Assembly: GCA_017477465.1 (NCBI GenBank) | Contig: JAFUVU010000032.1 | Span: 1 to 64,000, forward strand | DNA from: Bacteroidales bacterium | GTDB lineage: Bacteria; Bacteroidota; Bacteroidia; Bacteroidales; UBA932 | Length of the DNA stretch: 64,000 nt | Reading direction: 5' to 3' | Shown here: piece by piece, positions 3,067-16,486 of the stretch | How positions within the stretch are numbered: position 1 is the stretch's first letter | Layout: each line of letters begins with the position of its first letter | The notes under the pieces: model-generated | What the model saw: the letters and a program-made list of their open reading frames with translations, nothing else | Database searches by the model: none | Told to the model about the DNA's origin: nothing | Made by a program: the position numbers and the translations under genes

Positions 3067-4743
3067 TTATTCAGAATAACCTGTCCACGACAAATCAATA
3101 ATCATGAAATCATCATTTGTTGTTCCAGTATTGGAACATTTATTCCCTGTGACAACTATGATAAAGTCTCCGGCTACATTAAAATCAAATGATAATTTGC
3201 TTCTCTCGTATTGTTTCAAGGTTTCATCAACGTGATTGCTTGATTTAAGAACAGTTTCGCCGTCACTACTCTTTATTTCAATGGTAAAGTTACTTCCAGT
3301 CTTAGTCATCGCACGAGTATAATCAATAGATACTGTGCCACATCCCCCTGAGAGAACTGGAGATGTAAGCACCCCATTTTTTGATGAACGTGCGGAAAGA
3401 ACAGGCCTCGGGCTATCAACATCTTCATATCTAGAAGAATAGTTCAAAACTCGTGAATCGCTTGCTGTCCAGCCGTTTGCAGTCTTGTACTCAGAAATGC
3501 TTCCAGATCCTTCACCATTATTGATTGTTTCCAAATCTGCAGCTCCACCACCCGTCACCGGTGTTGAGCTTTTGCCTTCCTGCACAATCGTGTACTGCTT
3601 GAAATTAATAGAAACCTGACCGGTACGTTCTTCCTCAGAAGTGTTTTCTTCAATGCTGAATACAATCTTCCCATTACGAACAGCTTTAGTTTCCACATAT
3701 GTAATCCAGGAATAGCCAGGAGCGATCATCACCATAGGGTTGTCTTGATTAGTCTGGAAGGGAACTTCAAATGCGCCACCAGCAGCAGGAACCTTTACAG
3801 CGAATGCTGTTTCGTCTAGATTAAAGACTCCTTCCTCACAGGAAAGGATACGGGCTGCCGTAGTTCCATCGCCCTTCACGGCAATGACATAAACTTTACC
3901 GTTTGTTAGCGGGTTGGGGGCTGTAATCCTTACCATACCTGCAGAAACTGAAGAAGCCATTACCTCTGCTTCAAAGCCCTTGGTTCCAAAGGCATCTACA
4001 ACCGTAGCATCATCTGACGAATTAATAGTATAAGTTACATTTACGGATGAACCGGCTGAAATAATCACATCAGTATCCATATTGATGACAAATGCACCAA
4101 CTTTGGGGATAACAATAGTTGTTCCATCTCCTAAAGTAAAGGTTACTGCATCGGTACCATCCTCAACCTTAGAAAAAACTACTGCGCCAGTATTCCCAGC
4201 CTCACCTATGATATCCCATGTAACGCCACCGTTGTAGGAAATCTCGAAGTTGCCGTTATTGATACGCAGTTGCGGAGTCGCCACATGGGCTGTGGCGGCA
4301 ATCTTGTTGTTGTTTTCGTCCAAGAGGTACTCCCCGTTCACGGTCCAGTAGTAATTGCCGTCGGCATCGAGTTTTACGCCGATAGTGGGCGTCTGACCAT
4401 CATGGCCATTGGTTCCGTCCGTTCCGTCGGTTCCGTCAATACCGTCGATCCCGTTTTTACCATTGTAGATGGTGATTTTCCCGGACTGGGAGAATTCCAC
4501 AACATAACCGCTGCCGTCTTCCAACTTGGAGACGGAAACGATGCGGTCCTGTTTCTGCAGGGCGTCCACCGTTGTGGCCAGTCCGGAGAGGGTGGTGTTG
4601 ATTTGACCGACCAGCCTCTGGAGTTCCTTAATGTCTGCCTCTGCTTTGTCCATACGGGCCAGGAGGGCTGAGTCGTCATACTTTTCGCATCCGGCCAGCA
4701 GAAGCGCTGCACCCATTGCGAGAATCATTGATTTTAGTCTCAT
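3067..4743 (-). CDS. Surface lipoprotein with coiled coil, collagen-like run and BACON domain (DUF4988-like)
   Basis: A 558-aa lipoprotein: signal peptide with lipobox LLLAGC (Cys about 19), then a heptad-rich coiled coil (LLARMDKAEADIKELQRLVG), a short G-x-x run (GIDGIDGTDGTDGTNGHDG) and the YYWTVNGEYLLDENNN segment typical of DUF4988/PL29 N-terminal-like proteins. A BACON-type beta sandwich follows in the middle (AFAVKVPAAGGAFEVPF to the VSINFKQYTIVQEG segment), and the last ~150 residues look like a jelly-roll carbohydrate-binding domain. It is the last gene of the SusCD-type operon, 29 nt after the GH18-like gene. The likely role is a stalked surface glycan-binding protein; catalytic lyase activity is not supported. 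Confidence 0.75.
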   Translation of the reverse strand: MRLKSMILAMGAALLLAGCEKYDDSALLARMDKAEADIKELQRLVGQINTTLSGLATTVDALQKQDRIVSVSKLEDGSGYVVEFSQSGKITIYNGKNGIDGIDGTDGTDGTNGHDGQTPTIGVKLDADGNYYWTVNGEYLLDENNNKIAATAHVATPQLRINNGNFEISYNGGVTWDIIGEAGNTGAVVFSKVEDGTDAVTFTLGDGTTIVIPKVGAFVINMDTDVIISAGSSVNVTYTINSSDDATVVDAFGTKGFEAEVMASSVSAGMVRITAPNPLTNGKVYVIAVKGDGTTAARILSCEEGVFNLDETAFAVKVPAAGGAFEVPFQTNQDNPMVMIAPGYSWITYVETKAVRNGKIVFSIEENTSEEERTGQVSINFKQYTIVQEGKSSTPVTGGGAADLETINNGEGSGSISEYKTANGWTASDSRVLNYSSRYEDVDSPRPVLSARSSKNGVLTSPVLSGGCGTVSIDYTRAMTKTGSNFTIEIKSSDGETVLKSSNHVDETLKQYERSKLSFDFNVAGDFIIVVTGNKCSNTGTTNDDFMIIDLSWTGYSE

Positions 4744-4772
4744 AGTGCTTTGTATTGATAGTTAATGATTTA

Positions 4773-6314
4773 TTACCAGTCTTTCATCCAGGCATTATAA
4801 CCGCTGCTAGTTCGGCCACTTAAATACCATGGATTAAACATAAAGAAACTGCCGGGACATAAATACGGCAAAAGCTCATTGGCAGTCATTGTCCCTTCAT
4901 ATTTGCCTTGTAAATACGTCTCAATATCATAGGTCACAGATATATTGTTTAGAACATAACCTCCAGAGGACCATTCACTCAGGACGTCATAATCCATAGG
5001 ATTCCGTCGGGTAGTCATGACACATCCATATCGGGCCGATGAGAGCCCGGCAATAGGCTTCCGAACGTGGAGTTGTGAAACGCCAGGGTTATTAGGATGC
5101 CATGGATCAATTACTTGCACTGGCTCAATGGTATTGTAGTAACCGGACCAGGCGTAGTCCAGCAGTTCACCAACGACAATGCCGCCTGTTGCTTCAACGT
5201 CCCAGAAATATTCCGTAGGTTCCTCATAATCAGTCAACGTGAGCAATTTGTAATTACCCAGGGCTTTTCGAAGTTCCTTAATCAGTTTGGGATATGATTG
5301 GGTATCGATAGGAGCCCCTTCTTCGCCATACGAACAATTCTTGTCCCAAAGGTTGATTCCGTCAAAGCCGTATTGATTCACAACTTGCATGACCTGTGCA
5401 ACAAAACTATCAATCTGCTGGTCGTTCATATTGCAGAATCCAAGCTTTTTGGATCCGGTCTCAATGCAAAGACAGAGTTTACGGCCAGTTTCTTTGACAG
5501 GGCGGAAGTATTGATCGTAGTGATCCAGCAGATAACGCATATCCGGGCTCAGTTTCAATACAGGTGCCTGGGAGGAAGCATCATAGTCCAGCCGGAGTGA
5601 GGTGAAATTGACAATGTTTCCGATAGCATTGGTCCAACCATATATTGGGTCCATTTTGGAAGTGACATAATCAAGGACCAGCCTCGGGTCATATTGGCTG
5701 GTATTCAGATAGAAAACCGTAAAGCAATCGTCACCTGTATATAGTTCCGGTCTGCCGGAGAAGGGGGCTTGGATGTCAAGTGCTATATAAATAGTTTCAC
5801 CGTTGGAAGCCTTCAAGGGCAAGACATACGTTCCGGCCTCCAGCACGTTTCCCAGCGGATTGGTTGCGTAAATCCGCAACAGTTTTTCGTCGCTCTCCTT
5901 TTTCCCCGAGGGGATGTCAATGACGCCGCCATTCTCCAGCGTGTAGAACGGTGCGGGAAGCAGGGTGCATTGGGCCTTGTATTGCGCATTGTAGGCCTCT
6001 ACCAGAGACTCGTCAGACTGAACCAGCAAGGATTGGGACAACTCCTGCGGACGGGAAGCCCGTGCCTGCAGTTTCACGGAGGTGAAGTTCCCGCCCTCCG
6101 GGAGCAGGAGGTGCACAACCTCGGAAGTGGAGTTCACAGCGCGGAAGGAGATGGCCGGGAGGCCGGTCAACTGTTCCGAATCGGGCTGGGTGCCGGCGAG
6201 GGAGACGGCGTCTTCGACCTTGGTGCAAGAGGCGAGGAGATTGCCGGTCAGGCCGGCAATGACGGCGAGAAGGAGGAGATTTCTCGACTTCGCTCGAAAT
6301 GACAATTGTTTCAT
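4773..6314 (-). CDS. DUF1735 + GH18-like surface lipoprotein, catalytic motif lost
   Basis: A 513-aa lipoprotein whose signal peptide (MKQLSFRAKSRNLLLLAVIA, then GLTGNLLASC) is encoded by the REP-like element described separately. After the lipid Cys comes a DUF1735 (BT_3987 N-terminal-like) domain to about residue 180 and then a GH18-type barrel. The fourth-strand motif DxxDxDxE of GH18 endo-beta-N-acetylglucosaminidases appears as DGINLWDK, so the catalytic Glu is Lys and two Asp are Asn and Trp. It should therefore bind, not cut, glycans. Gene order (SusC, SusD, GH18-like, DUF1735-LamG, DUF1735-GH18) parallels the Bacteroides N-glycan locus around BT_3983-3987, where the last protein is an active ENGase. 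Confidence 0.82.
   Translation of the reverse strand: MKQLSFRAKSRNLLLLAVIAGLTGNLLASCTKVEDAVSLAGTQPDSEQLTGLPAISFRAVNSTSEVVHLLLPEGGNFTSVKLQARASRPQELSQSLLVQSDESLVEAYNAQYKAQCTLLPAPFYTLENGGVIDIPSGKKESDEKLLRIYATNPLGNVLEAGTYVLPLKASNGETIYIALDIQAPFSGRPELYTGDDCFTVFYLNTSQYDPRLVLDYVTSKMDPIYGWTNAIGNIVNFTSLRLDYDASSQAPVLKLSPDMRYLLDHYDQYFRPVKETGRKLCLCIETGSKKLGFCNMNDQQIDSFVAQVMQVVNQYGFDGINLWDKNCSYGEEGAPIDTQSYPKLIKELRKALGNYKLLTLTDYEEPTEYFWDVEATGGIVVGELLDYAWSGYYNTIEPVQVIDPWHPNNPGVSQLHVRKPIAGLSSARYGCVMTTRRNPMDYDVLSEWSSGGYVLNNISVTYDIETYLQGKYEGTMTANELLPYLCPGSFFMFNPWYLSGRTSSGYNAWMKDW
6239..6303 (-). repeat. REP-like two-palindrome element, copy in GH18-like gene 5' end
   Basis: Palindrome A is 6239-6263 (core ATTGCCGG-n5-CCGGCAAT), then a 14-nt spacer, then palindrome B at 6278-6303 (outer arms ATTTC/GAAAT, inner mismatches). 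Read on the minus strand in the gene frame, B encodes SFRAKSRNL and A encodes VIAGLTGNLL, i.e. the whole n- and h-region of the lipoprotein signal peptide. Confidence 0.85.
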
Positions 6315-6317
6315 ACG

Positions 6318-7643
6318 CTATTCCTCCACTTTGTTGATTTCGGGGATTTCGATGCCGGAGGGCCAGACGATGTCTTTTTCGGCTATGCCGTCGTTGCCGT
6401 ATCGGGAGTAATCCTTGACGGTGTTGCCCTTGCCCTCGTCGAATTTCCAATAACCGATGAGTTCCGGCAGGTCCTTTGGATTGCGGATACGGTACATATT
6501 CTCCCAGATCTGTTCCGGAGTCCTGGCGACGGACCATACCCGGGCTTCGGCCATTTTCCCCTGGAGCGGGCGATACTCGTTATAGGATTTGGCCAGGAAG
6601 AATTGATAGGCTTTGCTTGCCCCAAGCGCTCTTTGGGCCAAGTTGATCCGGTTATCGGCCCCTTGCACAGAGATTCCCAGTTCGTTTCCTTCGCTCTGGA
6701 GTCTTCCGTTCACATAAACCCGTACCTGACGGGATGCCTGGTCGTAAGTGCAGGCGACGTGGTACCACTGTCCTTCTTCCAATTTCTTCAGCGGATCACT
6801 CGAGGGGAACTTGCCGAAGGAAGAGCCGCTACCGGATCCGTCGAACTGGATCTGCTGGCGCTCGAAGTTCACATCTCCTATCCGCATCAGAAGGTACTGT
6901 TCAACACCCATCACAGAGGATATATTGCAGCCTCCGAAGTTGTTAGTAAGGTCAAACTGGTCGATGTAGATCAGTGCTTCATAGGTAACGGCCGTCAATC
7001 CGTTATAGGCGTTGGCCTGGGGGCTGTCCGGTACGTCGAGCAGCGGGAAGTTGATCCAGTTGTCGTGCAGGGAGGCCGCCACGGTAATGGCCGAGGAGCG
7101 TTTAAGGAGATAATAGGCAATGGCGCTGCTCTCCATGATCTTAATGCTGGAGGAACTGATCCTGACAGGGAGCAGGTAGGTCTCGTCGATTGTCATGGCA
7201 CCCGTCTGTTCTTCTCCTTCCCCCATAAGACCTTTCAGCCGTACAGGGATGGCCTCGGAAACGGTTTTCCCGGCAGGGATGGTGACATCGGCCCGGGAGA
7301 AATCCAGGTATTGGGACGGAACCAGAGCATAGCTGGTTCCATGGGTGGCATTGTAGCGGGCTACGAGGCTTTCGTCGACGGCCACCGAGGCGGTGACATC
7401 TTCTGAGGCCGGATAGGACAGCGTGACGCTTATTTCCTTGAGGAGTTCCGGGAGGTTGTTGCTGAATGTGGCCGGCTGTACCTGCTCGGTGGCGCTCACA
7501 TCCAGATAGACCGCGTTGGGGAAAGTATGCTCCTGCGCGTCAAAGCGGGAGCAGCCGGCCAGGAGGAGATTGCCGGTCAAGCCGGCAATGACGATGGCGC
7601 CGGCAATTACGGAGAATCGAATGTATGTCGATATCTTGTTCAT
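6318..7643 (-). CDS. DUF1735 + LamG/concanavalin-like surface lipoprotein
   Basis: A 441-aa lipoprotein. The signal peptide ends VIAGLTGNLLLAGC, its core encoded by palindrome A of the repeat element. Residues about 35-200 are DUF1735-like (FPNAVYLDVSATEQVQPATF, then a second strand-rich half), and residues about 205-420 form a LamG/laminin-G-like concanavalin domain (EALIYIDQFDLTN, GQWYHVACTYDQ, VRVYVNGRLQSEG, GKMAEARVWSVARTPEQIWENM, LIGYWKFDEGKG). This pairing is typical of surface glycan-binding proteins encoded next to SusCD and GH18 genes in Bacteroides. It sits 3 nt before the next gene, so one transcript is likely. No catalytic residues are expected. Confidence 0.85.
   Translation of the reverse strand: MNKISTYIRFSVIAGAIVIAGLTGNLLLAGCSRFDAQEHTFPNAVYLDVSATEQVQPATFSNNLPELLKEISVTLSYPASEDVTASVAVDESLVARYNATHGTSYALVPSQYLDFSRADVTIPAGKTVSEAIPVRLKGLMGEGEEQTGAMTIDETYLLPVRISSSSIKIMESSAIAYYLLKRSSAITVAASLHDNWINFPLLDVPDSPQANAYNGLTAVTYEALIYIDQFDLTNNFGGCNISSVMGVEQYLLMRIGDVNFERQQIQFDGSGSGSSFGKFPSSDPLKKLEEGQWYHVACTYDQASRQVRVYVNGRLQSEGNELGISVQGADNRINLAQRALGASKAYQFFLAKSYNEYRPLQGKMAEARVWSVARTPEQIWENMYRIRNPKDLPELIGYWKFDEGKGNTVKDYSRYGNDGIAEKDIVWPSGIEIPEINKVEE
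7568..7592 (-). repeat. REP-like element, palindrome A only, in the LamG lipoprotein gene
   Basis: ATTGCCGG-n5-CCGGCAAT core within 7568-7592, encoding VIAGLTGNL of the signal peptide. Palindrome B is absent; instead the preceding codons repeat half of A (VIAG-AI-VIAG), so the hydrophobic core contains a duplicated half-arm. Confidence 0.8.
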
Positions 7644-7654
7644 AGAATGACAGG

Positions 7655-8623
7655 TTAATGCGAGGGGTTGAGCAGCTGGATGGCGGCGCGGGTGGTGACG
7701 TAATTGCCGTCGTAGGAGTAGTAGTCGGACTTGATGTTACGGATGCCCAGTCCGGCCAGCGGGCCGAAGGAAACGACCCTCCGGGTGAGTTCCTCCACGG
7801 CACTGCATTTCTCCCGTTCCTCGTTCTGGATGGTGCCGTCCATGTCGGCCCCGAGCAGCAGTTTGGATGCCGGGACCTTGGCATAATCCAGGGCCGACAG
7901 GATCTGGAAATGAAGGTCCTGCGCAAAAGCCGTGGTTTCGCTGTCCAGGACGAAGTAATCCACTTCGGAACGGCTTTCCTCCGGGACAAACAGCGGGTTG
8001 CCTTCAAAAACCAACACCTGACCTTCCGTCTTGGCGGCAGAGAGCTTTGCTACAAGCGCGGAGGAGAGGGACTCGTTCAGGGCATCCCCCAGCCTGTAAG
8101 AGCCGGTGAACGCATAGCCGTCAAGGCCATTCTCCTTTACGGAGCCAACCACCTGGTCCAGATAGGTGTTAAGGGCGGCCACATCCGAGAAGCCCTTTTT
8201 GTCCAGGTCCACGTGGTACAGGACTTTGGTCCCGATGCTCTTCATCCAGGCCATATCTTCTTTGTCGAATTCGGAGAAGTGCTCGGCATTGGTGAGGCTG
8301 ACAAAGTCCAGGCTGTCCGGGAGGCAGCGCAAGAAGTCCTTCTCGCTGGCCGCCTTTTCCGGCGCATTCTCGAACCGCGCATAGAAGAGGAAATGGTCGC
8401 TCTGCTTGTAATTCAGCAGAGATGCCTTGTATTGCTCCCAAAGCTCAGGATTCTGGTCCCAGGGGCGGAGGTACGTGATGCCGGCAGGCTGGGTCTCAGT
8501 CCACTTGGTGCAAGAAGCCAGGAGATTGCCGGTCAAGCCGGCAATGACGGCAAGAAGGATGAGATTTCTCGACTTCGCTCGAAATGACAAATATGATGCT
8601 CGAAATGACATTATTGTTTTCAT
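7655..8623 (-). CDS. GH18-like surface glycan-binding lipoprotein, non-catalytic
   Basis: A 322-aa lipoprotein. The signal sequence contains SFRAKSRNL and VIAGLTGNLLASC from the repeat element, preceded by a second partial copy (SFRAS). The mature part is a TIM-barrel of the GH18 superfamily resembling the third gene of N-glycan-type loci (BT_3985-like). The position of the DxxDxDxE motif reads DGYAFTGS, with no acidic catalytic residue. It lies 5 nt after the SusD stop and 11 nt before the LamG gene. Expected function is glycan capture at the cell surface with SusD. DUF4849-like or other annotations are possible; a hydrolase call would be unsafe. Confidence 0.75.
   Translation of the reverse strand: MKTIMSFRASYLSFRAKSRNLILLAVIAGLTGNLLASCTKWTETQPAGITYLRPWDQNPELWEQYKASLLNYKQSDHFLFYARFENAPEKAASEKDFLRCLPDSLDFVSLTNAEHFSEFDKEDMAWMKSIGTKVLYHVDLDKKGFSDVAALNTYLDQVVGSVKENGLDGYAFTGSYRLGDALNESLSSALVAKLSAAKTEGQVLVFEGNPLFVPEESRSEVDYFVLDSETTAFAQDLHFQILSALDYAKVPASKLLLGADMDGTIQNEEREKCSAVEELTRRVVSFGPLAGLGIRNIKSDYYSYDGNYVTTRAAIQLLNPSH
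8524..8588 (-). repeat. REP-like two-palindrome element, copy in GH18-like gene 2
   Basis: Palindrome A at 8524-8548, a 14-nt spacer, palindrome B at 8563-8588, plus a partial extra B end at about 8598-8611 (cgaaatgaca). Translated on the minus strand in the gene frame it again gives SFRAKSRNL and VIAGLTGNLL. Confidence 0.85.
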
Positions 8624-8628
8624 GGCGC

Positions 8629-10236
8629 TTAGTCGTTATAGGGTTTGACATCCCACCATACGCGGGTGCTCATTTCGTCTCCGTTGCGGGTGCCTTCGCC
8701 GGTGGCTTCGCTGTTGAGGAGCCGGATGGCTTCTTCTACATTGGCCTTGTTCTGGTCGTGCTCCTCCAGCGGGTAACGGAGCCTGCGGGCGTGACGGTGG
8801 ACATCCACGGCGCCGCCGGAGAGATCCTGTGCAGCATCAAAGAGGCGCGGATAGCCGGTCCTGCGGTATTCGCTCCAAGCTTCGACGCCCAGCGGGAAAA
8901 TCGCAATCCATTTCTGGGTTATGATTTTCTCAAGATTCGTCTCGATGTCGATGGCAGTATCGTCCCAGGCGATGGTTACGTTGCTGGGACGGGTTCCCAC
9001 GCTCCAGGCGCCAAGGGGATCGGTGTAGGCGTCCGGGCGCCTGGTGTTATCGGCAATATAGGCATCGGCCCCACTGGCTCCTTTCTCTTCGAAGGAAAGG
9101 CGGATGGCCTGCTCGTACAGTTCCTTTGCCGATTCTGCACTGCCCCAGCGGAGTTCGTATTCGGCCCGCAGGAAGGTAACTTCGGCGGCATTCATCCAGA
9201 GGTAGGGCGTGTCGGTGTTCACCAGCATATTGGAATAGCATTCCACGAAATCTGTCTTGCTGGAGACCACGGAGCCCACGCGGACCCCGGCAAATCCGCC
9301 GCCGCGGACGGCGGGGAGGAACATCTTTTCGCGCCGGGGATCTTCGTAACCGTTCATGTAACAGATGATGTCGGCACCGACACGGTGGTCCTGCCAGCCG
9401 TTATAGATGAGGGCCGTGCGATTCTCTACGGCGTGCATCAGGGCATTGTCGGCATTGGTGGTAATCACACCCGCCGCGATGGCTTCGGAGGCTTTTTCGC
9501 GGCTCAGTTCCGGTTTGACGTAACTCAGGCGCATGGCCATACGGAGTTTCAGGGAATTGGCGAAGCGGCTCCACTGGGCGATGTTGCCGTAGTACACCCG
9601 GTCGAATGATTTCCATCCGGCAGGGTCGATGCCCTCGTTGGCCTTGAACTGGGAGATGGCCAGTTCCAATTCCTCGAACATCTCCTCGTACACCTTCTCC
9701 TGGGAGTCGTATTTCACATACAGACCTTCGTTGGAGACAGCGTCGCTGTACGGGACCGGCCCGTAGGAATCCGTCACGCGGTGCATGGTGGCCACCCGGA
9801 AGAGATGGGCGAAGGCAAGCGCCAGCTCGTCATCCGTCTCGTTGATGATGGCCCTGTACGGAGCATACATCTCCGTCATTACATTGGAGAAGGGCCATTT
9901 GCGCCAGTCCGGGGTCTCATTGAAGGTTTCAAAACGATCCAGCCAGGTATTGACCGTGGAGCCGATGTAGCCGGCATAGGGACCGCCGGAAAGGCTTTCG
10001 ACGAACTGATAGATATGTTCTTCGACCGGGACGACCAGGTTCTGCAGGTTGGTCACCTTGGTCCCGGTACGGTAATTCTTTACCTCCATCTGTTCTGCGG
10101 TGACCTGGTTGGGGTTGGTGTTCAGTTTCTCGTAGCGCGCGGTGCAGCCGGTGAGGAGATTGCCGGTCAGGCCGGCAATGACGGACAGAAGGAGGAGATT
10201 CTTCGCTGCGCTCAGAATGACATTTCTATTATTCAT
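8629..10236 (-). CDS. susD-like: SusD/RagB-family glycan-binding lipoprotein
   Basis: A 535-aa lipoprotein partner of the upstream SusC. The signal peptide MNNRNVILSAAKNLLLL then SVIAGLTGNLLTGC is repeat-derived. SusD hallmarks: N-terminal YEKLNTNPNQVT, the TPR-rich helices (YAPYRAIINETDDELALAFAHLFRV, VTDSYGPVPYSDA), and C-terminal IITQKWIAIFPLGVEAWSEYRRTGYP, the conserved segment of the SusD-like_2 group. It acts as the surface lid of the SusCD transporter that captures oligosaccharides or glycopeptides. It lies 11 nt after susC. Ligand cannot be read from sequence; locus architecture suggests N-glycan-like substrates. Confidence 0.92.
   Translation of the reverse strand: MNNRNVILSAAKNLLLLSVIAGLTGNLLTGCTARYEKLNTNPNQVTAEQMEVKNYRTGTKVTNLQNLVVPVEEHIYQFVESLSGGPYAGYIGSTVNTWLDRFETFNETPDWRKWPFSNVMTEMYAPYRAIINETDDELALAFAHLFRVATMHRVTDSYGPVPYSDAVSNEGLYVKYDSQEKVYEEMFEELELAISQFKANEGIDPAGWKSFDRVYYGNIAQWSRFANSLKLRMAMRLSYVKPELSREKASEAIAAGVITTNADNALMHAVENRTALIYNGWQDHRVGADIICYMNGYEDPRREKMFLPAVRGGGFAGVRVGSVVSSKTDFVECYSNMLVNTDTPYLWMNAAEVTFLRAEYELRWGSAESAKELYEQAIRLSFEEKGASGADAYIADNTRRPDAYTDPLGAWSVGTRPSNVTIAWDDTAIDIETNLEKIITQKWIAIFPLGVEAWSEYRRTGYPRLFDAAQDLSGGAVDVHRHARRLRYPLEEHDQNKANVEEAIRLLNSEATGEGTRNGDEMSTRVWWDVKPYND
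10158..10221 (-). repeat. REP-like two-palindrome element, copy in susD 5' end
   Basis: Palindrome A at 10158-10182 and, after a 14-nt spacer, a variant palindrome B at 10197-10221 with outer arms ATTCT/AGAAT instead of ATTTC/GAAAT. In the susD frame it encodes VILSAAKNL and VIAGLTGNLL of the signal peptide. Confidence 0.85.
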
Positions 10237-10247
10237 ATCAGACCCTC

Positions 10248-13200
10248 CTAAAAGTTAAGTTTCACGTTGAAGCCCAAGCGGCGGAGACTGGGCATCATGA
10301 AGTAGTCGATGCCCTGGTAGTTGTTGCCGGTGGAGGCGACGGACTCCGGGTCGAACGGAGCCTTGCAGTAGATCATCCAGAGGTTGTTCCCCACGAGGGA
10401 TACCGTGGCGCTCAGTACGTTACGGAACCACTTGCGTGGAAGCGTGTAACCGAAGGACAGCTCCTGGAGACGGAAATTGGTGGCGTCGTAGCGGTAATAC
10501 TGCGGCATGCCGCTCTGCGAGGCCAGCGAAGTGTACCACTTCTGCGGATCCACCCATTCGCGGCCGTTGACCAGGACGCCGCCGGCGTCGCGTGCCGCGG
10601 CCGATGCCTCGGACACGCCATAGAGGTCCATGCTCGCCTGCGTGGCACTGTAGCACACACCGCCGATGCGTCCGCTTAGGAGGATGCCCAGGTGGAAGCC
10701 GGCAAAGGTGACGTCGTTCCGCCAGGCGAGATTGTATTTCGGGAATACCGAACCGAGAAAGATCTCACTGTCGGTATCCGTCATGAGGGGCTTCCCTTCA
10801 TTGTCAATCTCGATGTAGCCCTGCCGGTTGAAGGCGACATCGGCCGTCGTGTAGAGATCGCCCAATGTTCCGCCCTTCTTGAGGATGTACATCACTTTTC
10901 CCAGGCCCTTGATGCGGAGCTCGTCGATATTCAGGGGGTCGCCCGTCACGGGGTTCACGGCACCTTCGGCCAGGTTCATGATCTTGTTTTTGTTCCAGGA
11001 CCAGGTGAAGTTGCTGTCCCATCCGAACTTGCCCCAGGTATGGCCGTATCCGGCCGACAGTTCGACGCCCGTGTTCCGGACGGAGCCTGTCTGCAGGTAG
11101 ATGGTTGTGTAAGTGGAGGAAGGCGCCAGTTGCGGGTTGAAGGTCTGGTTGCCGGTGTCGGCCAGATACCAGGAGGCGTTCAGCCTCAGGTCCTGCCACA
11201 GCCGGGCCTCGATGCCCACCTCGTAGCTCCGGGTGCGCTCCTCCTTGAGGTCGCCGATGGGATAATGGGTCTTGTCTTTCCAGATTCGCGCATTGGCGTC
11301 ATACTCGTAGGTGGTCATATTCAGGAAGCGCTCATACGGAATGCCCACTTCGGCATAGGAGCCCCTAAGTTTCAGGTAGGTGACGGGGCCAAGGTCCCAA
11401 AGGGAGGTGGGGGTCCAGGAAAGGCCCACAGAGGGGTAATGGAAGCACTTCTTGTTGGAACCGGCCAGTTGGGAAGGCCAGTCCACGCGTTCCGTAAGAG
11501 TCAGGTACAGCATCTTTTTCCAGCCCAGCTCCACACTGCCGAAGACGGACTGTGTCTCGTCATTCCAACCGCTCTTGCTGGCGCGGGATTTCACGTTGTC
11601 CAGGTCAAAGACATTGAACACATTGGCCAGGCCGTCTTCCTGGATAGGACCGCCGTAGGTAAGGGTGTTGGTCTTTACGTTGTTGATGGAGGCGCCCACA
11701 TTGGCCTGCAGGTTCCAGTCCTTGCCGAAGTCCTTCTTCACGTTCACCATCACGTCGGCATAGATCTGCCCGTCCTCCGTGCGGGCTTCCGTGTAATGGC
11801 CGTTGCTTCCGCCTTCGGAGATGGTGGGCTCCGTGGTGGCATATAGCTTCTGCGTGTAGATATTGCTGGCGTTGTCAATCTTGACGCGGGCGGCCACATT
11901 GAGCCAGGAAAGGATGTCGTAACTGGCCGAGAGGCTGACCATATAGCGGTGCTTGTCATTGTTCCGCAGGTTCCGGTAGGCGATCCAGTACGGGTTCTGC
12001 ATACGGAGGTCGCCGGCCAGTTCGTCCGGCCAGAATTGCTCCATCATCTTGGTTCCCGGATTGTACCTTTCATAAGACTGGTAGATGGAGAAGTCATAGC
12101 CCCGGGGAAAGAGATAAACCGAAGTGAGCGGGTTGCTGTACACGCCCTGGTTGGTCATGTTCTGGTCTTTCTGAAGGATGTAACTGCCGTTGAAATCCAG
12201 GCGGAGCTTGTCCTTCAGGAAGTAGCTTGTATTGCGGAAGGTGAAGTTGTATCGGTCGTACTTGTTGTTGGGGATGATGCCGTCCGAGTTCACGGCCGCG
12301 GCAGAGAAATAGGTCTGGTTCTTGTCCGTACCGCCGGACAGCGTAAAAGCATTGGTATAGGTGGTTCCCGTCTGGAAGAAATCCTTCGGGGAATAGTTGA
12401 ATCGGGCCGATTCGGGGAGATATTCTCCCCAGCTGAAAGCGCTCTTGCCGCTTTTCCCGTTATAACCCGTGCCGTAGCGCGTCTGGAACTGTGGAAGGAC
12501 GAACGGGCTCAGGAACTCCGTATTGCTGGAAAACGTGACCTTGATGCCGCCGGCTTCTCCTTTCTTGGTGGTGATGAGGATGGCACCATTGGCGGCATTG
12601 GAGCCATAAAGCGCCGCTGCCGCCGCGCCGGTGAGTACGGAAACGCTTTCGATATCCTCCGGGTTGATGTCGGCCACGCTCTCCGTGGCACCCTTGGAGT
12701 CGAATTCCGTACCACCGCCACCGCCGAAGTTGTACATAGGGATACCGTCGATGACATACAGCACGTTGGAGCTCTGGGCGATGGACTTGTTACCTCTTAA
12801 TACTACTTTTGAGGCGCCGCCCACGCCGGAGGAACTGGCGTTGATGGTCACGCCCGCCACTTTGCCGGAAAGGGCGTTGACGAAGTTCGCGTCCTTGACC
12901 GTCGTGATGGCGTCGGCCTTCACTTCTTGCACGTTGTAACTCAGCGCCTTTTGCTCCCTGCGGATACCGAGGGCCGTCACTACCGTCCCTTCCAGCTCGA
13001 TGTTGGCTTCCTGCAGAGTTACGTTGAACGTATGGCGGCCACCGATCGGCATTTCAACATCCGTATAGCCGATGGAAGAAAATACCAGTCGGCCCCCGAG
13101 TTTGTCTCCCGGAATGGTGAGGGTGAATTTGCCGTCCAGATCGGTGGTTGTGCCGACTGTCGTTCCTTTCACAAATACCGAGACGCCCGGGAGGGGAAAC

Positions 13201-13559
13201 CCGGCGGCATCGGCCACCGTCCCCTTTACGGCCCTGGGCTCTGCGGGAGCCTTCTTGGAAAGCGTGATGTTTTTGCCGGAGATGACATACTCCAAGCCGG
13301 TGCCGCGGACCAACTGTTCGAGCGTCGCCTGCAGGGTGGCATTCTTGACATGGAGCGTCACCTTCTGCTGCAAGTCCACTTCATCGCTGGTGATGGTGAA
13401 GAGGTAGCGGGTCTGCTGCTCAATGGCATCGATGGCCTGCTCCAGCCTGGCTTCGCTCAGATCCAGCGTAACCTTCCCCTCCGGGCTCTGTGCATACGCA
13501 CCAACTCCCAGTATCGGCAACAGCAGGATCAGTCCAAGCATTAATTTCTTTGTAATCAT
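10248..13559 (-). CDS. susC-like: SusC/RagA TonB-dependent outer-membrane transporter with STN domain
   Basis: A 1103-aa TonB-dependent receptor. A cleavable signal peptide (MITKKLMLGLILLLPILG, AYAQS) is followed by an STN domain (about 32-100, LDLSEARLEQAIDAIEQQ), a carboxypeptidase-D-regulatory-like barrel extension (about 110-195, VKGTVADAAGFPLPGVSVFV), the plug (VTTVKDANFVNALSGKVAGV, ...VLYVIDGIPM, SVLTGAAAAALYGSNAANG) and a 22-strand-type barrel ending in FNVKLNF. The STN domain is the part that in FecA/SusC regulators contacts the FecR anti-sigma factor, and a fecR gene lies 9 nt upstream, so ligand-induced trans-envelope signalling is expected. Pairs with SusD downstream. Confidence 0.95.
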   Translation of the reverse strand: MITKKLMLGLILLLPILGVGAYAQSPEGKVTLDLSEARLEQAIDAIEQQTRYLFTITSDEVDLQQKVTLHVKNATLQATLEQLVRGTGLEYVISGKNITLSKKAPAEPRAVKGTVADAAGFPLPGVSVFVKGTTVGTTTDLDGKFTLTIPGDKLGGRLVFSSIGYTDVEMPIGGRHTFNVTLQEANIELEGTVVTALGIRREQKALSYNVQEVKADAITTVKDANFVNALSGKVAGVTINASSSGVGGASKVVLRGNKSIAQSSNVLYVIDGIPMYNFGGGGGTEFDSKGATESVADINPEDIESVSVLTGAAAAALYGSNAANGAILITTKKGEAGGIKVTFSSNTEFLSPFVLPQFQTRYGTGYNGKSGKSAFSWGEYLPESARFNYSPKDFFQTGTTYTNAFTLSGGTDKNQTYFSAAAVNSDGIIPNNKYDRYNFTFRNTSYFLKDKLRLDFNGSYILQKDQNMTNQGVYSNPLTSVYLFPRGYDFSIYQSYERYNPGTKMMEQFWPDELAGDLRMQNPYWIAYRNLRNNDKHRYMVSLSASYDILSWLNVAARVKIDNASNIYTQKLYATTEPTISEGGSNGHYTEARTEDGQIYADVMVNVKKDFGKDWNLQANVGASINNVKTNTLTYGGPIQEDGLANVFNVFDLDNVKSRASKSGWNDETQSVFGSVELGWKKMLYLTLTERVDWPSQLAGSNKKCFHYPSVGLSWTPTSLWDLGPVTYLKLRGSYAEVGIPYERFLNMTTYEYDANARIWKDKTHYPIGDLKEERTRSYEVGIEARLWQDLRLNASWYLADTGNQTFNPQLAPSSTYTTIYLQTGSVRNTGVELSAGYGHTWGKFGWDSNFTWSWNKNKIMNLAEGAVNPVTGDPLNIDELRIKGLGKVMYILKKGGTLGDLYTTADVAFNRQGYIEIDNEGKPLMTDTDSEIFLGSVFPKYNLAWRNDVTFAGFHLGILLSGRIGGVCYSATQASMDLYGVSEASAAARDAGGVLVNGREWVDPQKWYTSLASQSGMPQYYRYDATNFRLQELSFGYTLPRKWFRNVLSATVSLVGNNLWMIYCKAPFDPESVASTGNNYQGIDYFMMPSLRRLGFNVKLNF

Positions 13560-13568
13560 GACGTTACT

Positions 13569-14567
13569 TTATTTACTATGGATATAGTAGATGTTTTCCT
13601 GAGCGTCGTAGGAATAGGTAAAATCCGAACTGGCGCGAAGCACATCCAGTGCTACCGTGACGCCGTCAGACACATATACCTTCATGCGGGGACTGCGATT
13701 GACGGGCATCTTCTCACACTGCAACACAATCTTGGCTCCGAAGGCCCGTTCGAAGGCTTTGATAACCTGTTCGAAGGGCATTCCACCTACAGAAAGCACG
13801 CCTTCTTTCCAGCTTGTTGCTGCAGCCGGGTTCTCCATCTTCGTTTTTTGCAGTTGCCCATCCGGCCCCATCCGGACGACATCCTTTGGCGCCATTTGCT
13901 GGGCGGTTTTCCCGGAAGCCTTGTCCACGATGGCGACCGAGCCTTCCAGTAGGGTGGTCGTAAAGCTGGCTTCGGATTCATCGGCCATTAGATTGAAGGT
14001 GGTACCAAGCACACGGACATCGTACGCAAACGTTTCAACCACAAAAGGATGCGCCTTATCTTCCTTTACATGGAAAAGGGCTTCGCCACTTACGGATACC
14101 CGGCGCTCGGCGCTTGCGAAGCGGGTGGGGTAGCGGAGTGTTGTTCCGGAGTTGAGGTCTACGCTGCTGCCGTCGGGGAGTTCCAGGGTTACCCGCTCGC
14201 CGTATGCGGTGCGGGCGGTCATCCACTCGTCGGCGGGGCTTTCCCGCATCAGGAGCCAGGACAGTCCGGCTGTCAGCGCCACTGCCGCAGCGATTCCGGA
14301 GACCATCCGGATTACGCGGCTGACACGATGCTTCCGTTTCCCTTCTTCAATTTCCCGCAGCGCAGCCGCTGCCTGCTCGTCTACCTCCAAGGCAACAGCT
14401 TCGGCCGCCATCATCTGGGCAGCGGCATACACGCGAAGTTCTTTATTGAACCGCAGCTGGTTCTTGGGGTTAGACTTGGCCCATGATGCCAACGCTTCGG
14501 TTTCTTCGGGGGACAAATCGTGCTCGAAGAAACGATGCATCAAATCCTCGTTAATCTGAATTTTCAT
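13569..14567 (-). CDS. FecR-type anti-sigma factor
   Basis: A 332-aa inner-membrane anti-sigma factor. The N-terminal cytoplasmic part (HRFFEHDLSPEETEALASW) binds the ECF sigma factor; one membrane helix lies at about residues 89-107 (GIAAAVALTAGLSWLLM); the periplasmic FecR domain follows (YGERVTLELPDGSSVDLNSG, FHVKEDKAHPFVVET, VRVLGTTFNLMAD), and the C-terminal DUF4974-like STN-like part ends YSYDAQENIYYIHSK. First gene of the SusCD operon, divergent from the sigma gene 120 bp away. It should couple substrate binding by the STN domain of SusC to release of the sigma factor. Confidence 0.93.
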   Translation of the reverse strand: MKIQINEDLMHRFFEHDLSPEETEALASWAKSNPKNQLRFNKELRVYAAAQMMAAEAVALEVDEQAAAALREIEEGKRKHRVSRVIRMVSGIAAAVALTAGLSWLLMRESPADEWMTARTAYGERVTLELPDGSSVDLNSGTTLRYPTRFASAERRVSVSGEALFHVKEDKAHPFVVETFAYDVRVLGTTFNLMADESEASFTTTLLEGSVAIVDKASGKTAQQMAPKDVVRMGPDGQLQKTKMENPAAATSWKEGVLSVGGMPFEQVIKAFERAFGAKIVLQCEKMPVNRSPRMKVYVSDGVTVALDVLRASSDFTYSYDAQENIYYIHSK

Positions 14568-14687
14568 GATTCGGACAGATGTTACTAATTTGGGTCACTA
14601 TTATTATAACTCCCAATCGGGGGAGATTGCAGACAAAAATTGTAAATTTTCCTGTATTTGAGAAATTTCATTAACTTCGCAGTATCA
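14568..14687. promoter_or_regulatory. Divergent sigma/anti-sigma control region
   Basis: The 120-bp gap between fecR and the ECF sigma gene contains a small hairpin (ctccc/gggag, 14610-14625) and, on the plus strand, TAACTTCGCAG at 14672-14682, one base from a TAnnTTTG minus-7 box, 8 nt before the preferred ATG. No clear minus-33 box was seen in either direction; fecR may be read from an ECF-dependent promoter whose consensus cannot be recognised here. Confidence 0.35.
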
Positions 14688-15275
14688 ATGACCGACAACG
14701 AGCGCATATCCTACAAGATGATTGAACGGCTGTTCAAAGCACAGAACAGCGTTCTCCTCTCGTTTGCGACCTCTTTTGTCCATGACCCGGATGTTGCCCA
14801 GGACATTGTCAGTGACTCGTTTATTTCTCTTATTGAGCACCGGGACAGCGTGGATCTTTCGGATTACAAGGCCTATCTTTTCGCCATCGTCCGCAATAAG
14901 TCCCTAACCTACAGGCGCGACAATACCCGCCACCAGGATATCCTGGAGCGCATCAAAAAAGAGGAAAGTGCCATGATGGAAGTCTATACCACAGCCATCG
15001 AAAACGCTAACCTATCCCTCGTCCATGCCGACGAAATCCGCCGCCTGTACCGGGAACAGCTCAATAAGTTTTCACCTCTTACGCGGCTCATCTTCACCAA
15101 AAGCCGGCACGACGGCATGACACACAAAGAAATTGCCGCCGAACTGGGCGTCTCCGAAAATACCGTCCGATACGAAATCTCCAAAGCCATGACAGCCTTC
15201 CGCGCCGCCCTGGCCGATTACGGCGAATTCATCCCGCTCATCCTTCTGATTCTGTCCAACCTGAAAGTTGGATAG
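14688..15275 (+). CDS. ECF-family RNA polymerase sigma factor (FecI-type)
   Basis: A 195-aa sigma-70 family protein. Region 2 spans about residues 12-80 (FKAQNSVLLSFATSFVHDPDVAQDIVSDSFISL, KAYLFAIVRNKSL), and region 4 about 115-175 with LTRLIFTKSRHDGMTHKEIA then LGVSENTVRYEISKAM, typical of Bacteroides sigma-70 families next to SusCD loci. The frame extends to a TTG at 14658, but the ATG at 14688 gives a normal N-terminus (MTDNERISYKMIERLF). It is transcribed away from fecR; FecI/FecR pairs are more often codirectional. Expected to activate the SusCD operon when released by FecR. Confidence 0.9.
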   Translation: MTDNERISYKMIERLFKAQNSVLLSFATSFVHDPDVAQDIVSDSFISLIEHRDSVDLSDYKAYLFAIVRNKSLTYRRDNTRHQDILERIKKEESAMMEVYTTAIENANLSLVHADEIRRLYREQLNKFSPLTRLIFTKSRHDGMTHKEIAAELGVSENTVRYEISKAMTAFRAALADYGEFIPLILLILSNLKVG

Positions 15276-15287
15276 TCTAAAAAGAAA

Positions 15288-15321
15288 AACAGCAGCAGAA
15301 TTGCTTCTGTTGCTGTTTTTT
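15288..15321. terminator. Bidirectional terminator between the ECF sigma gene and tmRNA
   Basis: A 13-bp stem (aacagcagcagaa / ttctgttgctgtt, one G-T pair) with a TTGC loop, followed by six T on the plus strand and preceded by an A-rich AAAAAGAAAAA that becomes a T-tract for the convergent tmRNA. Placed 12 nt after the sigma stop and directly after the tmRNA 3' end. Confidence 0.85.
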
Positions 15322-15322
15322 G

Positions 15323-15718
15323 TGGAGGTGAGCGGACTCGAACCGCTGTCCAAACGTCGCACCTGGCGGCTTTCTACATGCTTATCCATCCTTTGGTTTT
15401 CGAGGAAACCCTGCCGGAAGGCGGGCGAAGTTTCCCTTAGCCTTTAAGTCTTAGCCGGATTTAGAGGCGTCCTCCGGAGCAGCCTCAAATGGATGATACC
15501 CCTTGAAGGGCCCTTAAGAGGCGGAAGGGCCGAGGGATACTCGTCGGCGGCGCAGCCTTGGCGTCGCGGATTAAGCTAATTGCCTTGGGCTAATTAAGCA
15601 GCGAGTGCATAGTTGTTGTTGGCAACTGATTTTTCGGAGTCTGAGATTTACGGGCAAGGCTCCCACGCCCGACATGCTTACCGTCCTGCATCGGCGCTGT
15701 CAAAACCAAAACACCCCC
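15323..15718 (-). ncRNA. ssrA: Transfer-messenger RNA (tmRNA)
   Basis: About 396 nt. The 5' end GGGGGUG pairs with CACCUCC near the 3' end (7-bp acceptor stem with one G-U), followed by discriminator A; CCA is not encoded. The T-arm GGUUCGAGUCC is intact. The 5' part after the acceptor stem reads UUUUGGUUUUGACAGC, a normal tmRNA D-loop-like segment. The tag frame (15623 down to 15594) is GCC-AAC-AAC-AAC-TAT-GCA-CTC-GCT-GCT-TAA, giving ANNNYALAA, a standard ssrA degron ending for rescue of stalled ribosomes with SmpB. Confidence 0.96.
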
Positions 15719-15736
15719 GATGTCTGAACGTGGGTG

Positions 15737-15767
15737 CAAAATTAATAAAAAAAAGATTCCCGGTCAA
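15737..15767 (-). promoter_or_regulatory. tmRNA promoter with minus-33 TTG inside a repeat copy
   Basis: On the minus strand, TAATTTTG (15744-15737) matches TAnnTTTG, and TTG (15767-15765) lies exactly 20 nt upstream. Transcription would start 10-15 nt before the mature tmRNA 5' end. The TTG falls in the partial REP-like copy 15755-15769. Confidence 0.6.
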
Positions 15768-15795
15768 GCAGATTCCCGGTCAAGCCGGGAATGAC
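15755..15795 (-). repeat. REP-like element beside tmRNA, one full palindrome A and one partial copy; probable nlpC terminator
   Basis: 15771-15795 is palindrome A with changed but still complementary arms (ATTCCCGG / CCGGGAAT instead of ATTGCCGG / CCGGCAAT); 15755-15769 repeats its first 15 bases. On the minus strand the left arm can pair with either right arm, and the second right arm is followed by C and eight T (15754-15747), i.e. an intrinsic terminator 4 nt after the nlpC stop. Confidence 0.75.
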
Positions 15796-15799
15796 GGGA

Positions 15800-16444
15800 T
15801 TATTCGTCGGGGAGGATGCGACGTGCGCCCATGTAGCGCATCATGAAATAAGGATGAGAGGACGTATCTTCCGTAACTCCTTTGGACACCGAAGCGTGGA
15901 TGAAGGTGAAGGACCCTTTCTCCTCATCTACGGACACGATAATGCCGACGTGGCCGATGTTGCGCACGCTGCCCCTCTTGCCGAAGAAAACCAGGTCTCC
16001 CTTTTGCAGGTCGGAGTAGTTTTCGACTTCCCGCCCTTCGCGGAACTGGGCGCCGCTGAATGCGGTTATCTTGTAACCGAAATGCCTGAACACATAGCTT
16101 GTAAAGCTTGAGCAGTCGAATTGCTTGGGCCCGGAAGCCCCCAGCTTGTAAGGAGTGCCGATAAAGGTGCGGGCATATGCTATCACTTGGTCGGATAGGG
16201 GAATGTCCTTTTCAGTATTCTCCTGTGCCTTAGCTTCCCATTCTTTTGACGGCTGATCGGCGACATTTCTTACTCTGTCGATGGAATCCAGAACTTCCTG
16301 TGCTCGCTGCCTGGACAAAGCGATGGCGGTTGAATCCTCCAGAGGCAACTGTATCGGAGCCTGGGTTTGGGATACGCTGCGGCGGGTTGTTCCGCATGAC
16401 AGGACAGCAAGTAAAGCGAGGCCGTATGACAGGATTCTTCTCAT
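15800..16444 (-). CDS. NlpC/P60-family cell-wall peptidase lipoprotein
   Basis: A 214-aa lipoprotein (lipobox LLAVLSC, Cys17). After an alpha-helical linker the NlpC/P60 papain-like domain covers about residues 85-205, with the catalytic Cys111 in FDCSSF, His165 in GHVGI and a third polar residue His183 in FIHAS. Such enzymes cut gamma-D-Glu-diamino acid bonds in peptidoglycan stem peptides. A TATTTTTG minus-7 box (16453-16460 on the minus strand) lies 8 nt upstream, so the gene has its own promoter although it follows the pilus operon by 42 nt. Terminated by the repeat-derived hairpin at 15755-15795. Confidence 0.9.
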   Translation of the reverse strand: MRRILSYGLALLAVLSCGTTRRSVSQTQAPIQLPLEDSTAIALSRQRAQEVLDSIDRVRNVADQPSKEWEAKAQENTEKDIPLSDQVIAYARTFIGTPYKLGASGPKQFDCSSFTSYVFRHFGYKITAFSGAQFREGREVENYSDLQKGDLVFFGKRGSVRNIGHVGIIVSVDEEKGSFTFIHASVSKGVTEDTSSHPYFMMRYMGARRILPDE

Positions 16445-16452
16445 CGCGTCTG

Positions 16453-16460
16453 CAAAAATA
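16453..16460 (-). promoter_or_regulatory. Minus-7 box of the NlpC/P60 gene
   Basis: TATTTTTG on the minus strand fits TAnnTTTG, 8 nt before the ATG; no clear minus-33 box. Confidence 0.45.
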
Positions 16461-16486
16461 GCAAAAATCCTGCTAAAACCGCCGGA

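Follow-up and report, generated by a model that had tools for sequence, protein, structure and literature searches.

Dispersed palindromic repeats that probably serve as parts of predicted lipoprotein signal peptides in a Bacteroidales operon

Can a dispersed palindromic repeat be translated as the export signal of a protein? The question is raised by a 64,000-nucleotide (nt) stretch of contig JAFUVU010000032.1 (positions 1 to 64,000; Bacteroidales bacterium, assembly GCA_017477465.1), hereafter the window, in which short palindromes, A and the two versions B1 and B2 of a second palindrome, lie within the first codons of four neighbouring lipoprotein genes, P0001 to P0004. A first-pass annotation had described them as one two-palindrome element, resembling repetitive extragenic palindromic (REP) sequences, that encodes signal peptides. 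Its coordinates, translations and constant 14-nt spacer between A and B were all confirmed, the spacer being exactly 14 nt in three of three composites. We consider it highly probable that the repeats are translated and serve as the n-region and part of the h-region of predicted Sec/SPII (signal peptidase II) lipoprotein signal peptides. The genes and their repeats are as follows.

4773..6314, minus strand: lipoprotein P0001, with a BT_3987-like_N (DUF1735) match and a GH18 match barely above the cut-off
6239..6263, minus strand: palindrome A, a CGTC-type REP, reading VIAGLTGNL as part of the P0001 h-region
6278..6303, minus strand: palindrome B1, reading LSFRAKSRNL as the n-region of P0001
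6318..7643, minus strand: lipoprotein P0002, with BT_3987-like_N and Laminin_G_3 matches
7568..7592, minus strand: palindrome A without B, forming the second half of the P0002 hydrophobic core
7655..8623, minus strand: lipoprotein P0003, GH18, BT1044-like
8524..8548, minus strand: palindrome A, part of the P0003 h-region
8563..8588, minus strand: palindrome B1, the P0003 n-region, with a partial B head (SFRASY) in front
8629..10236, minus strand: SusD-like lipoprotein P0004 (PF12741, E 9.2e-165)
10158..10182, minus strand: palindrome A, part of the P0004 h-region
10197..10221, minus strand: palindrome B2, reading VILSAAKNL as the n-region of P0004

The N-termini read MKQ-LSFRAKSRNL-LLLA-VIAGLTGNL-LASC for P0001, MKTIMSFRASY-LSFRAKSRNL-ILLA-VIAGLTGNL-LASC for P0003, MNNRN-VILSAAKNL-LLLS-VIAGLTGNL-LTGC for P0004 and MNKISTYIRFSVIAGAI-VIAGLTGNL-LLAGC for P0002, so that repeat and spacer make up nearly the whole signal peptide in three of the four genes. 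All copies are in frame with the start codon, as had been claimed, but they do not all follow it directly: from the first base of the ATG it is 11, 35 and 15 nt to B in P0001, P0003 and P0004, respectively, and 51 nt to A in P0002. By rule-based scoring, each of the four peptides has a basic n-region, with positive charges ahead of the hydrophobic core, a hydrophobic h-region (maxima of 2.7-3.1 on the Kyte-Doolittle scale over 9 residues), a lipobox with its Cys and no acidic residue. The best 9-residue hydrophobic window of the three composites consists of the spacer (LLLA, ILLA or LLLS) and the first half of A (VIAGL). A simple lipoprotein regular expression run on the window flagged eight of 45 open reading frames (ORFs) and missed P0001. 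Based on the established rules for lipoprotein signal peptides, from which Sec/SPII export is predicted, B (LSFRAKSRNL or VILSAAKNL) would supply the basic n-region, the 14-nt spacer and the first half of A would supply the core of the h-region (LLLA-VIAGLTGNLL), and the end of A would lead into the lipobox Cys. P0001 to P0004 may thus be exported and lipidated through repeat-encoded peptides, and in signal-peptide codons the frames retained would be those that give basic and hydrophobic stretches.

If this is correct, orthologues without a repeat should not carry the same peptide, and they do not. The repeat-less SusD of locus L102 has the signal peptide MKKIMILFSIVLTTSC and the repeat-less P0003 orthologue of L099 has MKTLNYLFIVLSFMAFVSC; ordinary signal peptides are found in P0001 of L101 and L102 and in P0002 of L099 and L100, and the P0003 orthologues of L099 to L102 all have a signal peptide without a repeat. 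The P0001 orthologue of L099, on the other hand, carries B1 and A. Any A or B, with up to three mismatches, was present in five of 80 SusD-bearing loci (L099, L100, L101, L103 and L104). Within SusD itself, A is located at the same site in L099, L101, L103 and L104, L100 has only B2 and L102 has neither. The SusD proteins of L101 and L102 are nearly identical past the Cys and differ in the signal region, indicating that this region turns over quickly. The SusD N-termini of L101 and L104 have tandem copies of other short palindromes (RSGMT-type) in front of them, which are read in frame and give very long n-regions. In L101, the P0002 orthologue has an A copy at 4596-4620, immediately before its probable start and with the frame open, which might be a precursor of the arrangement in the window. 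The closest SusD loci come from Bacteroidales metagenome-assembled genomes (MAGs) of rumen, omasum, cecum and rectum, which suggests that the host of the window is a gut Bacteroidales bacterium.

What kind of repeats are these? A is 25 nt long, CGTC-ATTGCCGG-CCTGA-CCGGCAAT, with a CGTC tag, an 8-bp stem and a 5-nt loop, and it is a strong palindrome (-12 kcal/mol, z -3.2). B is a weak one (-5.1 and -4.6 kcal/mol, z -1.2 and -0.5), with predicted folds of 6 bp and a 6-nt loop for B1 and of 5+2 bp with an internal loop for B2. On the minus strand, the tag is CGTC in the four signal-peptide copies of A and TGTC in the three copies of B. A has the stem design of 8-9 bp opening with A-T pairs and a 4-5-nt loop, which B1 and B2 lack. 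CTCC comes next after the A stem in all four signal-peptide copies; for CGTC REPs the expected unpaired tail is one fitting CCA. Variants of the A stem retain pairing (GATGCCC...GGGCATGAC, GATTACC...GGTAATGAC). Allowing up to three mismatches, the window's own genome (G000; 2.42 Mb, 82.5% complete) has 49 A, 24 B1 and 22 B2 places on many contigs, all 95 distinct, and the reversed-pattern controls gave no place each, which excludes chance for all three. Across the genus the distribution of A is patchy: among ten chosen genomes (up to one mismatch), G003 has 41 copies, G019 has 22, G028 has eight, G023 has one and six have none. A can be classed with the CGTC REPs and B less readily, and both behave like Rickettsia palindromic elements (RPEs); they are dispersed, probably non-autonomous palindromes that insert between and within genes. 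The two-palindrome element is not itself a genome-wide unit, as the full B-spacer-A composite matches only three places in the own genome, all of them in the window.

The palindromes could have originated from a REPtron, a REP unit with its own REP-associated tyrosine transposase (RAYT). We rejected this origin for A and B, since the only Y1_Tnp match in the genome (82.5% complete), on contig C17, has neither of them in its flanks. This ORF (L098:1300-2319, 339 amino acids, with a DHTHF motif) is flanked by other palindromes, CCCCTATGC...GCATAGGGG. The truB gene next to it carries A and B inserts.

The repeat had been described as one normally found between genes, and in this genome that does not hold: 31 of the 49 A copies, 17 of the 24 B1 copies and seven of the 22 B2 copies, 55 of 95 altogether, are within genes, 43 in number. 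For these counts, genes were called by a home-made procedure in 275 kb of retrieved sequence, with the start of P0003 placed by hand and a B2 copy at C67:23965 left out; the procedure rates 91% of this sequence as coding, so that copies in genes are still rarer than under random placement. By the same method, 30 of 69 A copies are intragenic in G003, G019 and G028, a set that omits two of the 22 G019 places through de-duplication. The genes concerned, as judged by PDB or Pfam matches, include SecA, IleS, UvrA, MetG, HutI and PolA as well as MutL, AtpG, DnaX, TruB, DsbD and Fmt. A has four open frames, and the 31 intragenic copies use xIAGQAGND 17 times, VIAGLTGNL 11 times, xHCRLDRQS twice and xLPVKPAM once, an uneven usage (chi-square 22.5, p 5e-5). 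The absence of copies in frames with stops was not used as a test, since the argument is circular: any ORF that holds an element is necessarily open. For many N-terminal frames (e.g. C11:69044, C42:4519 and C43:7422), translation probably starts only past the element, and the copy itself looks truly intergenic.

In-frame insertion itself, as additional residues missing from orthologues, was found in SecA, IleS and UvrA. The SecA comparison shows it at the level of sequence: the own-genome protein reads DFV-EIAGQAGNDGVVGNDGSV-KAIWHNHW at the element, where SecA of G028 (89% identical) has DFVEIAADKAIWHNHW and that of G019 (89%) has a shorter relic, DFVEIAGPAGNDGTVKAIWHNHW. Thirty same-genus loci were fetched, five of which were dropped as the motif-bearing ORF was absent (L187, L189, L201, L204 and L206); 22 of the 25 readable ones, own included, have the plain loop, and L184 has a different insert. 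In UvrA, residues 507-542 (36, unaligned) are placed opposite six residues of 3pih_A, and IleS has about 11 additional residues at the element. The AtpG Pfam match extends across both of its inserts, and the structure alignments of HutI, MetG and PolA did not cleanly resolve an insertion. At the 3' ends of two genes, C67:49367-50005 (L072) and C12:17879-18445 (L067), B2 provides the last residues and the stop (DSSLRSE*). Similar proteins of G000 (C60:23050-23847) and G003 (L224) carry B2 and A, respectively, at sites that roughly coincide, a hint of hot spots for insertion. An ORF on contig C8 (L035:2-1831) has LptF_LptG followed by a formyl transferase (Fmt) in one frame, an apparent fusion, with an A variant in the Fmt part.

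Are such signal-peptide copies confined to one operon? All 95 places were scanned with uniform criteria (element near an ATG, a 9-residue hydrophobic window of at least 2.3 and a coding score above 10). Ten copies were listed, eight of them in the signal peptides of five genes, namely the four window genes and a DUF1573 lipoprotein, and two internal to other proteins. The DUF1573 lipoprotein, with B2 at C67:23965, starts MRFFVRTM-RFFASLRM-TKGALRMTKGVLRMSKGVLSVAGALVLLASC, and a DUF1573 lipoprotein of G028, also with B2, has the N-terminus MRFFASLRMTIAAALLVISC; as members of the same family with similar sequence past the Cys, the two look orthologous. Relatives were searched in a first set of 101 genomes (16 matched; 16 locus contexts inspected) and in two sets of 300 same-genus genomes, evenly drawn from a larger group (eight and six matched; 15 loci inspected). 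In the first set, most of the other loci inspected had no repeat in a signal peptide. A GH92-type lipoprotein (Pfam assignment made on the G078 copy) carries B2 and A in G061, G005, G078 and G263, reading MRFFASLRMT, then VIAGLTG(N/S)L, then Cys, with the variants VIVGLTGNL in G263 and VIIAGLTGNL in G005; its B2 has the opposite orientation to that in the window. In G263 and G078 this gene shares a contig with SusD at a distance of about 9 kb, possibly in the same locus, so that the case is not fully independent. A DPP-IV-like peptidase of G081 has B1 in its N-terminus, MIPLSFRAKSRNLLFVALLFPLSLNAQ, and the single A copy of G023 reads MMKIKLYIFVFVAF-VIPGLTGN-LRAQ in an outer membrane efflux protein (OEP, TolC-type). 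The uniform scan of 70 distinct A contexts from four relative genomes listed three: this OEP, an internal copy in DsbD of G028 and the N-terminus of a DsbD-type protein of G003 (L258). The last, with A in the n-region, was not counted, as an ATG within A could be the start. In G019 (C19), an ORF (L226) has a twin-arginine-looking signal, MKRRDFIKISSAAAVAAAC, with A immediately past the signal region.

How did the window come to have four such modules? Those of P0001 and P0003 are 94% identical across 87 nt. Since the P0001 orthologue of L099 has B1 and A, and its P0003 orthologue neither, the simplest reading is that recombination or gene conversion copied the P0001 module into P0003 once the lineage had separated from that of L099. 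The P0004 module looks like a mosaic, having B2 in common with the SusD of L100 and A with that of L099. In P0002, A probably entered as a separate event, because it is missing from the orthologous signal peptides of L099 and L100. One may ask whether the mobile palindromes of this genus act as a reservoir of ready-made export signals, recruited repeatedly and spread from one lipoprotein gene to its neighbours through recombination at the repeats, and we regard the arguments for and against this as evenly balanced. A and B would insert within and between genes; B would yield a basic n-region in several frames, and A a hydrophobic stretch in one, and the recruits would be SusD, two DUF1735 lipoproteins, and the GH18, GH92, DUF1573, DPP-IV-like and OEP proteins. 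The earlier idea of a ready-made lipoprotein export signal gains from the recurrence in the DUF1573, GH92, DPP-IV-like and OEP genes, as predicted signals, and loses from the small number of copies so used.

Several observations weigh against reading the repeats as export signals. Signal peptides hold few copies (eight of 95, in five genes, four of which are in one operon), their assignment is rule-based, and the home-made gene caller missed two N-terminal cases (P0003 and C67:23965). The division of labour first described, with B as basic n-region and A as hydrophobic core running into the lipobox, is only partly borne out: the repeats with their spacer give most of the n- and h-regions, but A alone is moderately hydrophobic (mean of 1.69 for VIAGLTGNLL) and the best windows require spacer residues. 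Furthermore, the conservation of A is not specific to the signal role. Among five SusD orthologues, the third codon positions of A are invariant in 8/8 cases, against 8/80 downstream of the Cys, and identical codons are used at 7/8 positions in A, against 5/42 codons with an invariant amino acid (Fisher p 5.7e-5). However, A is nearly unchanged in non-signal genes too: in four of five ortholog pairs that share a copy, it is 92-100% identical, with flanks at 70-91%, and in the fifth (DsbD) it is 76% identical, with flanks at 73 and 88%. Freezing of the A sequence is thus common, whether from recency, conversion or selection, and is alone no argument for a function of the signal copies.

The alternative that best withstands these data is that the repeats are tolerated passengers, the signal codons being permissive sites at which only compatible frames survived, with native neighbouring residues doing the signalling. 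It is consistent with the many REPs at non-signal positions of core proteins, with the adequate look of the signal peptides in repeat-less orthologues and with the spacer, which contributes half of the best-window residues in the three composites; in P0002, a native-looking hydrophobic FSVIAGAI precedes A and the best 9-residue window overlaps A only partly. In P0001, P0003 and P0004, however, repeat and spacer fill nearly all of the stretch from the first residues to the lipobox, and their removal would leave these proteins without a hydrophobic core. The GH92-type proteins, moreover, pair an oppositely oriented B with A in the same frame. We take passengers to be a serious possibility, one that falls a little short of an even chance.

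The repeats might instead be kept mainly as DNA or RNA elements, acting as hairpins at gene starts, in mRNA stability or in translational control, with the signal peptide being incidental. The frozen third positions and codons of A across five SusD orthologues and its folding energy of -12 kcal/mol speak for such a role, but recency, gene conversion or re-insertion would equally explain the near-identity of A in other genes, the SusD genes of L100 and L102 do without A, and the four start regions fold unremarkably or only mildly (z -1.3, -2.2, -0.9 and 0.0). We consider this explanation unlikely. A location of the hairpins at the mRNA 5' end, as had been suggested, is not supported either, since gaps of 3-11 nt to the preceding gene make P0001 to P0004 probably internal cistrons and A is the only one of the palindromes that folds stably; the start-region folding just given likewise speaks against it.

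Lastly, the starts of these genes could be mis-annotated, with the repeats upstream of the real initiation codons. Di Nocera et al. voiced this suspicion about many N-terminal REPs (PMC3733652), and several other N-terminal frames of this genome look like such cases. For the four window genes it is very improbable: if translation began past the repeat, nothing ahead of the lipobox and the mature protein would be made, and it is repeat and spacer that give most of the n- and h-regions in front of the Cys. Lipoproteins of SusD/GH18-type families require a signal peptide, which such starts would strip off, and in the close orthologues inspected the position of the Cys corresponds.

The surroundings in the window add two further features.

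10248..13559, minus strand: SusC-like TonB-dependent receptor P0005, directly upstream of P0004, with a signal peptide without the element
15771..15795, plus strand: palindrome A, fifth copy in the window, intergenic in the home-made gene calls

On the minus strand the gene order is SusC-like P0005, SusD-like P0004, GH18-like P0003, P0002 (DUF1735 and LamG) and P0001 (DUF1735 and GH18), with gaps of 11, 5, 11 and 3 nt, and these five genes look like one operon. The fifth A copy is about 50 nt from a transfer-messenger RNA (tmRNA) gene at 15320-15718, minus strand (Rfam RF00023, 153.6 bits); an Rfam scan of 4500-16500 found the tmRNA alone above its gathering score.

REPs within genes are already known from the RPEs of Rickettsia and from the CGTC REPs of Di Nocera et al. 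(2013; PMC3733652), and the signal-peptide copies are therefore a special case of a known kind. According to the same paper, CGTC REPs resemble A in having a CGTC or TGTC tag, an 8-bp stem starting from A-T pairs, a 5-nt loop and tens of copies, they are also inserted in uvrA, DNA polymerase I, tRNA synthetases and tRNA pseudouridine synthase B, and Bacteroidetes are among the phyla named; RPE-6 and RPE-4 of R. conorii are equated there with CGTC-1 and CGTC-4. In contrast to what is described for these REPs, more than half of the copies counted here are intragenic in the home-made gene calls, and the N-terminal copies of the window operon are coding and form predicted signal peptides, a term that occurs zero times in that paper. 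RPEs are similar in that palindromes lie in frame within protein-coding genes, a comparison of behaviour rather than sequence, and differ in having a host from another phylum. REP/RAYT systems (TnpA-REP, REPtron) also consist of dispersed palindromes, and one Y1_Tnp-family match is present in the own genome, but neither A nor B borders its ORF; similarly, PMC3733652 reports no RAYT flanked by CGTC units. The QMITE elements of Coxiella, non-autonomous and palindromic, give in-frame protein extensions (PMC5896051), but they are longer and another kind of element, and 'signal peptide', 'signal sequence' and 'lipoprotein' have no match in that paper. Among the papers that the literature searches listed, with subscription journals and supplements outside their scope, we found none that announces REP-encoded signal peptides. 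What seems to be new here, judged from sequence, is that in several gene families REPs may code for export signals that look functional.

Taken together, the window offers a concrete and testable route from selfish non-coding DNA to a protein-targeting signal, for which empty and filled orthologous sites can be compared. With it, a Bacteroidales genus joins the lineages with REP-encoded insertions in housekeeping proteins, and such insertions matter when genes are called, start sites annotated and signal peptides predicted in MAGs from rumen and gut.

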